Below, piece by piece: positions 11,752-55,527 of a DNA stretch of 64,000 bases (position 1 is the first letter of the stretch; each line of letters begins with the position of its first letter). Source of the DNA: a bacterium HR17 (GTDB taxonomy: Bacteria > Armatimonadota > Fervidibacteria > Fervidibacterales > Fervidibacteraceae); contig BEHT01000005.1 of the NCBI GenBank assembly GCA_002898575.1, forward strand, positions 1 through 64,000, read 5' to 3'. The translations under genes were made by a program, and so were the position numbers. The notes below the pieces were generated by a model, which saw only the letters and a program-made list of their open reading frames with translations, ran no database searches and was not told the DNA's origin.

Positions 11752-12035
11752 TGCTTCGTTGAATTTTTCCTTTCATGCCTCGGAGGGCGCATCTTTTGAC
11801 GCGCCGATTTTTTCGGCGGCTCAAGAGAGCCGCCCTCCGAGCAAGGCTTCAACCTTCGGAGGGCGCGTCTCCCGACGCGCCGCTTTTTCTCTTCGGCGGC
11901 TCAAAAGAGCCGCCCTCCGAGCAAGGCTTCAACCTTCGGAGGGCGCATCTCCCGATGCGCCGCTTTTTCTCTTCGGCGGCTCAGAGAGCCGCCCTCCGAA
12001 CAAACCCCATTAAACCCCGTTATTCAACGCAGCAG
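11752..12035. mobile_element. MITE-like element A (284 bp, three palindromic modules)
   Basis: The left end reads TGCTTCGTTGAATTTTTCC. The right end, read inward, is CTGCTGCGTTGAATAACGG. These match the two ends of element B at 13739-13871. It is flanked by CAAGGTGC (11744-11751) and TAAGGCGC (12036-12043), which agree at 6 of 8 bases, as expected of an ageing target duplication. Inside are three copies of an approximately 57-bp palindromic module, separated by GAGCAAGGCTTCAACCTT. It holds no gene, so a transposase would have to act in trans. It inserted into the 3' end of the small gene at 12020-12241. Confidence 0.75.
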
Positions 12036-13510: not shown

Positions 13511-13978
13511 TTAAGGCGCGCCTGCATAACCCCCGGTCCTGTTCCAAACACTCGTCGGGAAAATACAAGCCCCCTTGCCAAAGCCTTCAGCCACGGCTGG
13601 GAGCAGCACACTGAAATACCCTTTTTGCGTGATGTTTACGACGAACCGGTTGTGTTTCAAGGGAACGCCCAGCCGTTGCGAAAAGGGGCAAGGGTGAACT
13701 TCTAACCTTGTGCCCAAAACTTCACGGAGCGTTGCGCCTTGCTGCGTTGAATAATGGTGGTTGGTCGGAGGGCGGCTCTCCTGAGCCGCCGAAAAATGGC
13801 ATGAACATCGCAAGGGCGCGTCAGGAGACACGCCCTCTAAAGCGCTGCCGAAAAGAAAATTCAACAAAGCAGTTGCGCCCGTTTCTCGCCTCTTGGCTTC
13901 CTCCACCTGCCGCATCACTTCAACGGCGTGCCACAATCGCTGCACGACTGCGGTTTGGGTCAGCGTTGTCGTTGCCAT
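13511..13978 (-). CDS. Unknown protein between prkA and yhbH, carrying an in-frame MITE insertion
   Basis: The gene starts at ATG 13978, eight bases after GGAGG, and reads 155 residues. Residues 1 to about 35 form a helix (VVQRLWHAVEVMRQVEEAKR). Then 47 residues are translated from MITE B and its extra target copy. The rest (LREVLGTRLEVHPCPFSQRLG and on) is again protein-like. Without the insertion the protein would be 108 residues, with ...RRETGAT joined directly to LREVLG.... No family is recognised. Its 3' end overlaps the possible long 5' end of yhbH. Whether the present product is functional cannot be told. Confidence 0.6.
   Translation of the reverse strand: MATTTLTQTAVVQRLWHAVEVMRQVEEAKRRETGATALLNFLFGSALEGVSPDAPLRCSCHFSAAQESRPPTNHHYSTQQGATLREVLGTRLEVHPCPFSQRLGVPLKHNRFVVNITQKGYFSVLLPAVAEGFGKGACIFPTSVWNRTGGYAGAP
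13739..13871. mobile_element. MITE-like element B (133 bp) with perfect 8-bp target duplication
   Basis: It is flanked on both sides by GTTGCGCC (13731-13738 and 13872-13879). The left end reads TTGCTGCGTTGAATAATGG; the right end, read inward, is TGCTTTGTTGAATTTTC. The ends are imperfect inverted repeats of each other and match those of element A. It holds a single palindromic module. Element plus one target copy is 141 bp, exactly 47 codons, so the host frame stays open. Confidence 0.85.
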
Positions 13979-20445: not shown

Positions 20446-20547
20446 CCTCAAAGGGCGCGTCTCCTCACGCGCCCTTGCGGTTTTCATGTCATTTTTCAGC
20501 GGCTCAGGGGAGCCGCCCTCCGACCAAACCCCATCGTTCAACACAAC
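20446..20547. repeat. Palindromic repeat C (family 1, one MITE-type end kept)
   Basis: One family-1 module: an AGGGCGCGTCTCC arm with its partner, then CGGCTCAGGGGAGCCG and CCCTCCG. The right end has CCCCATCGTTCAACACAACA, a variant of the MITE right end. The left end keeps CTTTTCGGCA as in element B, but the terminal TGCTTTGTTGAAT has decayed. No target duplication is visible. Confidence 0.7.
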
Positions 20548-44831: not shown

Positions 44832-44920
44832 CCCTCCGAATGTTTGGCGGCTCAGGAGAGCCGCCCTCCGAGAGTCATCCCGTTTTTCGTTCGGCGGGCG
44901 TATCTCCCGATGCGCCGATT
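44832..44920. repeat. Family-1 palindromic repeat (D), partly decayed
   Basis: GGCGGCTCAGGAGAGCCGCC with CCCTCCGA on each side, then a second, damaged copy with GCGTATCTCCCGATGCGCC. No MITE ends are visible. Confidence 0.6.
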
Positions 44921-44935
44921 GATTAAAACCTAATG

Positions 44936-45001
44936 GTAGCGTCGGGGTTTATCCCCGACGGTCGTTTGAAACGGCCGTCGCCCATAAAGGACGACGCTAC
45001 C
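44936..45001. repeat. Family-2 palindromic repeat
   Basis: GGTAGCGTCGGGG...CGACGCTACC outer pair, a CGGGGTTTATCCCCG hairpin, a CGTTTGAAACG hairpin and a GTCGCCC...GGACGAC pair. About 66 bp. Confidence 0.75.
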
Positions 45002-45025
45002 GAGAGCTACCTTGTTGTTTGCCGT

Positions 45026-45162
45026 TCGGAGGGCGCGTCTCCTGACGCACCGATATTTGGCGGCTCAAGAGAGCCGCCCTCCGAGAGTCACCTTGTTTGT
45101 CGCTCGGAGGGCGCATCTCCCGATGCGCCGATGTTTGGTGGCTCAAGAGAGCCGCCCTCCGA
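45026..45162. repeat. Family-1 palindromic repeats (E), two tandem modules
   Basis: Two modules of the form TCGGAGGGCGCGTCTCC...GCACCGATATTTGGCGGCTC...GAGCCGCCCTCCGA, separated by GAGTCACCTTGTTTGTCG. Arms differ between modules in paired positions (GCGCGTC with GACGCAC, a G-T wobble; GCGCATC with GATGCGC). Confidence 0.8.
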
Positions 45163-45215: not shown

Positions 45216-45363
45216 CGGTAGCGTCGCCCCTTGTGAGCGACGGTCGGTCGCATCCGTCGGTGGACAAAACCCGACGCTACTGCAATGGCTCCCCAATCTG
45301 CAGCGCGCCCCTCGGGGGTGACGGCACTTTGAACGACCGTCGGGGACAAGCCCCGACGCTACC
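45216..45363. repeat. Family-2 palindromic repeats, two copies
   Basis: One copy from CGGTAGCGTCGCCCC to CCGACGCTACTG, then a second from GCGCCCCTCGGGGG to GGGACAAGCCCCGACGCTACC. Both keep an internal hairpin. The rest of the gap to 45402 holds nothing I recognise. Confidence 0.7.
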
Positions 45364-46663: not shown

Positions 46664-46864
46664 TCGGAGGGCGCGTCTCCCGACGCGCCGATGTTCGGCG
46701 GCTCAGGAGAGCCGCCCTCCGAAGAGTTTGTCGTTCGGAGGGCGCGTCGCCCGACGCGCCGATGTTCGGCGGCTCAAGAGAGCCACCCTCCGAAAGTTTG
46801 CTGTTCGGAGGGTGCGTCTCCCGACGCACCGTTTTTTCGGCGGCTCAGAAGAGCCGCCCTCCGA
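46664..46864. repeat. Family-1 palindromic repeats (F), three tandem modules
   Basis: Three modules in a row, each TCGGAGGG - hairpin 1 - spacer - hairpin 2 - CCCTCCGA. Hairpin 1 arms are GCGCGTC/GACGCGC twice, then GTGCGTC/GACGCAC. Hairpin 2 is CGGCTC...GAGCCG (one arm has GAGCCACC). No MITE ends remain. It lies between the WecA-like gene and a lipoprotein gene on the other strand. Confidence 0.85.
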
Positions 46865-48554: not shown

Positions 48555-48726
48555 TCGGCGCGTCAGGAGATGCGCCCTCCGAACGACAAACTCTCGGAGG
48601 GCGGCTCTCCTGAGCCGCCGAAGAAAGAGCGGCGCATCAGGAGATGCGCCCTCCGAGCGACAAACTTTCGGAGGGCGGCTCTCCTGAGCCGCCGAACATC
48701 GGCGCATCGGGAGATGCGCCCTCCGA
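48555..48726. repeat. Family-1 palindromic repeats (G), tandem modules
   Basis: About two and a half modules in the opposite orientation to array F (GGCGCGTCAGGAGATGCGCCCTCCGA, then CTCGGAGGGCGGCTCTCCTGAGCCGCCGAA). A degenerate tail runs to about 48786. Confidence 0.8.
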
Positions 48727-48828
48727 AGGGCGAACAACCGGAGCCGAGCAAACGGCTGCGGCTCACCAGAAGGTTCGCCCTCCGAAGCGCAATTTATCCA
48801 TTCCCCCACCTATCGCTATTACCTTTGT

Positions 48829-49050
48829 CGCGTCGGGGTTTATCCCCGATGGTCGTTGATGGTCGTTTAACGACCGTCGCCCGCAAGGGACGACATTACG
48901 GATTTGGAGGTCATTGCGGTAGCGTCGGGGCTTGTCCCCGACGGTCATTAAACGACCGTCGCCCACAAGGGGCGACGCTACCGATTCATCATCGCCCGCA
49001 AGGGGCAACAATACGGAGTTTGTTACCGCCCACACAAGAGGCGACGGTTG
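48829..49050. repeat. Family-2 palindromic repeats, about three copies
   Basis: The best copy, 48917-48983, runs from CGGTAGCGTCGGGG to GGCGACGCTACCG and keeps all three internal hairpins (CGGGGCTTGTCCCCG; GGTCATTAAACGACC; CGCCCACAAGGGGCG). The flanking copies are partly decayed. No gene is seen in 48452-49059. Confidence 0.75.
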
Positions 49051-49852: not shown

Positions 49853-50102
49853 GCCGATGTTCGGCGGCTCAGGAGAGCCGCCCTCCGAGGGTGTTGGAGG
49901 GCGCGTTTCCCAATGCGCCGATGTTTGGCGGCTCAGAGAGCCGCCCTCCGAGGGTGTCGGAGGGCGCGTTTCCCAATGCGCCGATGTTCGGCGGCTCGGA
50001 GAGCCGCCCTCCGAGAGTGTTGGAGGGCGCGTCTCCCGACGCGCCGATGTTCGGCGGCTCAGGAGAGCCGCCCTCCGACCAAACCCCATTATTCAACACA
50101 GC
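49853..50102. repeat. Family-1 palindromic repeats (H), about three modules and one MITE-type end
   Basis: Tandem modules with joining TGTTGGAGGGCGCGTTTCC and TGTCGGAGGGCGCGTTTCC. Hairpin-1 arms GCGCGTT/AATGCGC (one G-T wobble) beside GCGCGTC/GACGCGC. The right end has CCCCATTATTCAACACAGC, the MITE right end; the left end is missing. 50103-50207 holds nothing recognised. Confidence 0.85.
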
Positions 50103-55389: not shown

Positions 55390-55527
55390 TCGGAGGGCGG
55401 TTCTCCTGAACCGCCGAGAGAAAAAAAACGGCATGCAAGAACGGCGCATTCGGAGGGCGGTTCTCCTGAACCGCCGAAAGAAAAAACCGGCGTGCAAGAA
55501 CGGCGCATCGGGAGATGTGCCCTCCGA
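55390..55527. repeat. Palindromic tandem repeat (I), family-1 variant
   Basis: TTCGGAGGGCGGTTCTCCTGAACCGCCGA occurs at 55389 and again at 55449, each followed by an A-rich stretch and ACGGC(A/G)TGCAAGAACGGCGCAT. The hairpin is GGCGGTTC...GAACCGCC, a paired change from GGCGGCTC...GAGCCGCC elsewhere. It fills the gap between the exosortase and BY-kinase genes; no gene is seen there. Confidence 0.75.

Follow-up and report, generated by a model that had tools for sequence, protein, structure and literature searches.

The repeats at 46664–46864 of the window (the whole 64,000-nucleotide stretch of bacterium HR17 DNA that was analysed) are best explained, with a probability that we put at about 0.78, as the core of a miniature non-autonomous transposon (MITE), a core that amplifies in tandem between fixed ends. 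The three modules recognised in the earlier note exist, although with lengths of 59, 59 and 60 bp rather than the ~57 bp given there, and element ends were not recognised on either side of this array. The window holds eight module clusters, one fewer than the nine places counted originally. The array at 46664–46864 is built as follows:

46664–46722, forward strand: module 1, 59 bp; A half at about 46664–46689 (head TCGGAGGG and hairpin), a linker, and the B half on the opposite strand at about 46697–46722
46723–46734, forward strand: spacer between modules 1 and 2, AGAGTTTGTCGT, of a type that recurs in distant arrays
46735–46793, forward strand: module 2, 59 bp, with a T-G in the stem of the B half
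46794–46804, forward strand: spacer between modules 2 and 3, AAGTTTGCTGT
46805–46864, forward strand: module 3, 60 bp, hairpin A with the paired change GTGCGTC/GACGCAC

The other seven clusters are:

11753–12033, forward strand: complete element, with the left end at 11753, modules at 11780–11840, 11856–11920 and 11936–11999, and the right end reaching 12033
13741–13870, reverse strand: complete solitary element of 130 bp with one long-linker module, flanked by an 8-of-9 duplication, GGCGCAACT/GGCGCAACG
20448–20547, forward strand: degenerate solitary element, right end at 20529–20547
44845–45162, forward strand: array of two modules and extra halves, ends not recognised, with a GTAG-headed repeat interleaved (44935–45001)
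48556–48785, reverse strand: array of two modules and extra halves, ends not recognised
49862–50102, forward strand: three-module array, right end intact at 50084–50102, left end missing
55390–55527, reverse strand: long-linker module and a half with the GGTTC/GAACC hairpin, ends not recognised

A module consists of two related half-elements, A and B, in inverted orientation, and each half is made of the head TCGGAGGG followed by a hairpin with 8-bp arms and a pyrimidine-rich loop. Read from the head, the A half is GGCGCRTC-loop-GAYGCGCC and the B half GGCGGCTC-loop-GAGCCGCC. The 807,310 bases of the genome that were parsed contain 495 halves (248 A and 247 B), which form 217 modules, every one of them an A-B pair; in a smaller first sample this held for 132 of 134 modules, the other two having one untyped half. 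The head reads TCGGAGGG in 283 of 319 halves, and the window contains this motif 36 times, where shuffled sequence has it 1.79 times on average and 6 times at most. Matches to the A pattern number 336 in the 3.15-Mb genome, and 60 relatives have none; a second pattern matches 238 times in HR17 and not once in 290 other genomes of the phylum, with both same-genus genomes in these sets only 61–63% complete. Many contigs (C1, C2, C5, C6, C8, C9, C10 and C12 among them) terminate in or beside arrays, and given this the true copy number is probably higher than counted.

The flanks of the clusters are conserved too, with GCTTTGTTGAATTTTCCTTTCGGCAGTGCC before A and CCAAACCCCATTATTCAACACAGC after B. 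The left end GCTTTGTTGAAT... and the right end ...ATTCAACACAGC are inverted repeats of each other (consensus GCTTTGTTGAAT and GCTGTGTTGAAT), and solitary elements mostly measure 117–134 bp. In a census of clusters not selected by their ends, 62 could be evaluated and 4 more ran off contigs: 32 have both ends, 6 just the left one, 5 just the right one, and 19 lack both, at least one conserved end being found in 43. Ten of the 19 end-less clusters hold no complete module. Pairing of ends across the genome yields 28 elements of 117–983 bp.

Target-site duplications were sought around 33 elements with both ends, 18 of them from general stretches and 15 fetched by their ends (not by their outer flanks). 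At fixed offset the flanking 9-mers match at 4.33 and 4.27 of 9 positions against 2.35–2.44 when permuted (0 of 1000 permutations), and the excess covers nine positions. When small offsets are allowed, 16 of the 33 elements carry a duplication of 8–9 of 9 (permuted mean 0.47, maximum 3), while 13 match at 6 of 9 or fewer. These duplications of ~9 bp surround solitary and arrayed copies alike, and at one locus (L098) AGCCGCATC stands on both sides of a 12-module array. The elements are thus short, non-coding by themselves and bounded by terminal inverted repeats and target-site duplications, as expected of a MITE. The earlier note had touched on this larger element only as "MITE cases".

Arrays stand between the same two ends as solitary modules do, with 12 modules in 983 bp at L098 and a 948-bp element at L099, while another locus (L054) has about 16 B tails in 1162 bp. 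The number of cores therefore varies from one to about 16 with the ends constant, in the manner of a BOX-like composite. The linker within the module is 23–28 nt long in 24 of 28 solitary modules and 6–16 nt long in 182 of 189 arrayed ones, and spacers are common to the modules of one array and also to distant arrays. Such a pattern would be expected if a core with shortened linker duplicates locally in tandem and arrays exchange modules. An origin of the spacers from fused element flanks was suggestive for some but failed for the GAGTTTGTCGT type, and was set aside: only 6 of the 51 distinct spacers tested gave a match expected by chance less than once in 100. At another locus (L097:504-1343) two array-bearing copies bracket a sequence that looks tRNA-like by eye, and the whole can also be read as one 840-bp element.

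A gene caller based on codon usage puts 42 of the 52 module clusters in intergenic DNA, 6 inside genes and 4 partly inside; of 5000 random placements, 643 fall between genes. A cruder caller using open reading frames only gives 27 of 52 against 277 of 5000. One cluster inside a gene (L050) is a five-module array with a perfect 9-of-9 duplication, inserted in a gene for a 1268-residue Eco57I/MmeI-like methylase of a restriction-modification system (L050:627-4433, forward strand), where the array occupies 1341–1797 in frame. The element, the offset and one copy of the duplication add up to 468 bases, a multiple of three, the frame stays open, and the array adds a 25-residue peptide repeat (SEGGSPEPPKSGASKDAPSE...) to the methylase.

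We propose that the dispersing unit is a ~130-bp element with the left end GCTTTGTTGAATTTTCC..., one A/B inverted pair with a ~24-nt linker, and the right end ...CCCCATTATTCAACACAGC. Its insertion left the ~9-bp duplications; the putative enzyme would be a DDE transposase of the IS903 group. In many copies the core, with shortened linker, is observed head-to-tail several times between the fixed ends. Slipped replication or unequal exchange at the hairpins may multiply it, and modules would also be traded between arrays. Arrays without ends, such as 46664–46864, would be eroded or recombined copies. The hairpins would stay mostly self-complementary as complementary variants are copied or corrected, so that a maintained three-way RNA fold would be unnecessary. 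Several observations speak against the transposon reading: a partner element was not found, 13 of 33 elements match at 6 of 9 or fewer in the duplication test, 19 clusters, that at 46664–46864 included, have no ends, the core pair sits inside a different element in the same genus and order, and fused flanks account for few of the spacers.

The likely identity of the mobilising enzyme comes from the ends. IS903B is described with GGCTTTGTTGAATAAATC at both sides and a 9-bp repeat, CTCAGATGC (PMC10569121), and in plasmid Rts1 we read directly the same IS903 ends and a 9-bp duplication, GACACAACG. The HR17 element has ends like GGCTTTGTTGAATAAATC, the left one identical to the IS903 group (IS5 family) over GCTTTGTTGAAT and the right one, by eye, one base off, and it shares the 9-bp duplication. 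It differs in having no transposase gene, and no IS903-type transposase was detected in the genome. From sequence likeness, we infer that a DDE transposase of the IS903 group, IS5 family, moved the element. The PF01609 profile found no match in the HR17 genome in a search whose control worked, whereas the PF13737 profile matched neither there nor, in its control, anywhere. The IS903B transposase is likewise absent from HR17 and from 58 of 60 relatives, the matches in the other two being one partial and one weak. The earlier note had suggested looking for a full-length insertion sequence with the same ends, and among the genome-wide end pairs there is no single element of 1–3 kb; more generally, no autonomous partner with these ends was found in the 96% complete assembly, where many contigs end inside arrays and the gaps could hide one. 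Viral, phage and plasmid collections gave no match.

How, then, should the paired substitutions be understood, which the earlier note took as a sign that a three-way junction is maintained or was copied as a fold? The stems listed there, GCGCGTC/GACGCGC, GCGCATC/GATGCGC, GTGCGTC/GACGCAC, GGCTC/GAGCC and GGTTC/GAACC, were all found; GCGCGTT/AATGCGC is present as well (49894 and 49957), but contains a G-T and so is not fully paired. Pairing of substitutions is borne out for hairpin A, although unpaired combinations, GCATC..GACGC (11780 and 48558) and GCGTC..GACGCAC (45026), had gone unmentioned. Neither as DNA nor as RNA did any of 200 shuffles fold as well as module 1 (z about −5 to −7). Among 135 distinct modules, the three-way fold is the minimum for the A-to-B strand in 85 as DNA and in 59 as RNA, and an alternative fold is favoured by 2 kcal/mol or more in 22 (DNA) and 53 (RNA). 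Because its two halves are related and inverted, a module can also form a single long hairpin, which is the RNA minimum of module 1 on both strands; the long hairpin was rejected as a conserved fold, its covariation not exceeding shuffles.

In an alignment with a single module from each cluster (36 in all, each with 4-nt loops and a short linker), 17 cells show paired change against 7.3 after shuffling (0 of 500 shuffles), all confined to two pairs of hairpin A, and none falls in the outer stem or in hairpin B. Across 217 modules, 51 substitutions in the heads have no compensating change at all, and a maintained outer stem was therefore rejected. Thus two hairpins, with hairpin A paired beyond chance, are supported, and maintenance of the three-way junction as a whole is not. 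Over all halves, A pair 5 is GC in 116, AT in 103, AC in 13, GT in 13 and otherwise in 3, and outside this pair 40 departures on both sides preserve pairing against 132 others, counts to be read with a parsing of halves that favours consensus-like ones. When changes are counted on the supported branches of a tree, both sides of A pair 5 change together in about 5 of 6 independent pairs, with a median sign-test p of 0.06, which does not reach 0.05. Comparison of 138 neighbouring modules within arrays gives 87 stem changes on one side only, 16 that are paired and 3 further double changes, and 13 of the 16 paired changes accompany a different linker, as expected from the copying of a ready-made subfamily. 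Much of the pairing in hairpin A is copied variation. The two findings that the earlier note had said would count against it, pairing broken as often as kept and paired changes traceable to a few copied subfamilies, are thus both seen in part.

Hairpin-templated correction, known as quasipalindrome repair, is a mechanism that restores complementarity. There is a real chance, if somewhat short of even, that the paired changes are mutational in this sense, with quasipalindrome repair or conversion between modules restoring complementarity; this would account for the covariation only and is compatible with the transposon reading. Single-sided changes dominate among array neighbours and yet paired states dominate A pair 5 overall (116 GC and 103 AT against 29 others), which is what such correction would produce, and one module (in L101) has a flipped loop (AAGA) and a paired change with its linker unchanged. 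On the other hand, the 13 of 16 neighbouring paired changes that bring other differences are explained equally well by subfamily copying.

The relation of the core to its ends bears on a second alternative. The A-B pair is also present in another genome of the genus (G002, one copy) and in one of the order (G004, seven copies), in a repeated element of roughly 170 bp (L129–L136) that carries the pair with paired changes. As in HR17 there is an A-B pair, with T-A for C-G at one stem position in the B half and in most A halves; the difference is a conserved 3' part of ~95 bp (in 5 of 8 copies) and no IS903-like ends. Because the core pair sits there inside a different element, the A-B core has a history separate from the IS903-like ends. 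A scan of genome contigs, which may omit records near the HR17 genome, returned seven stretches: Geminisphaera colitermitum TAV2 accounts for six, and the seventh lies on a contig binned as Flavobacteriales. This contig (47% G+C) is 80% identical over 116 bp to an HR17 copy and has the left end too, so that other species than that of HR17 probably contain the element. It is conceivable, but in our judgement unlikely, that the element has two engines. A REP heterodimer, of a kind moved elsewhere by a REP-associated tyrosine transposase (RAYT), would have been captured in this lineage by at least two unrelated miniature elements; the IS903-type ends would provide long-range mobility, and the hairpin pair would drive amplification in tandem on the spot, chiefly in its short-linker versions.

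We regard it as improbable that A and B are themselves REPs, with a head of GGAG type, which a RAYT spreads in the form of inverted dimers by working on single-stranded hairpins. The head beside a perfect palindrome, the inverted heterodimers, the tandem groups and a copy number above 100 do agree with published descriptions (PMC3733652, PMC8266576), and a Y1 transposase of G. colitermitum TAV2 is flanked on both sides by a very similar palindrome, GGAGGGCGGGTC-tccc-GACCCGCC, which differs by one base pair from A and from B. However, the modules lie within a second set of ends with target-site duplications, and IS200/IS605-type elements are said not to make such duplications (PMC2817692). No GTAG or CGTC tetranucleotide stands beside the palindrome, the head being neither. 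The earlier note had also proposed searching for a REP-associated transposase; none with these ends was found in HR17, and the sole Y1_Tnp match in its genome (C41) is flanked by GTAG-headed repeats of another family, a RAYT flanked by the same repeat being seen for the similar Geminisphaera palindrome only. RAYT-driven REPs were rejected as the main reading on account of these outer ends and duplications and of the other repeat family beside the sole Y1 transposase, while a REP-like origin of the core is possible.

Several related repeats were seen on the way. The second HR17 family has GGTAGC heads, forms inverted heterodimers and lies on both sides of the only Y1 (RAYT-like) transposase (L051:1021-2960); it is found in the window at 44935–45001, 45217–45363 and 48918–48982, and together with the transposase it is likely an ordinary REP/RAYT system. 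Y1 transposases of G. colitermitum TAV2 (L091, L092, L093 and L096) are flanked on both sides by palindromes, with GGAG-like heads at three loci and a GTAG head at one. The passages of the REP literature consulted make no mention of a GGAG-tagged class, and publications on the head sequence, on IS903-like MITEs with tandem palindromes and on REPs of the phylum yielded nothing on this family among the matches listed.

That the three-way fold is itself under selection, as a structured RNA or DNA element such as an mRNA stabiliser, a terminator or a protein-binding site, is very improbable: folding far above shuffles, the excess of paired change in hairpin A and the co-change at A pair 5 favour it, but the outer stem is never compensated, hairpin B shows no paired change in the 36-module alignment, the sign test at A pair 5 misses 0.05, A-C and G-T are equally common there (13 and 13) so that neither RNA strand is favoured, orientation relative to co-directional neighbouring genes shows no clear bias (18 against 9), and the window has no Rfam match.

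The transposon reading, if correct, suggests that a DDE-type miniature transposon can carry a REP-like palindrome pair as cargo, and this would blur the line between two classes usually regarded as separate. It also carries a caution, since most paired changes between neighbours in HR17 arrays travel with copied subfamilies: a selected fold need not lie behind paired substitutions in palindromes of high copy number. Compared with REP/BIME and REPIN sequences, the HR17 repeats share the head and palindrome, the inverted heterodimers, the tandem groups, the mostly intergenic position and the hundreds of copies of a short palindrome, but they are spread inside larger ends with duplications and flank no RAYT. 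The closest parallel in architecture may be BOX of Streptococcus pneumoniae, boxA-(boxB)n-boxC, also a composite miniature element, in which the two ends are fixed and the number of tandem cores varies; its ends have been proposed to resemble those of a resident insertion sequence, and BOX can form part of reading frames (PMC3049150, PMC10969869). BOX, which we compare by its description and not its sequence, differs in that the HR17 core is an inverted palindrome pair, the ends are IS903-like and the duplications are visible. HR17 would thus offer a BOX-like composite from outside the streptococci, whose passage from a single core to many can be followed at individual loci while the duplications are still present.
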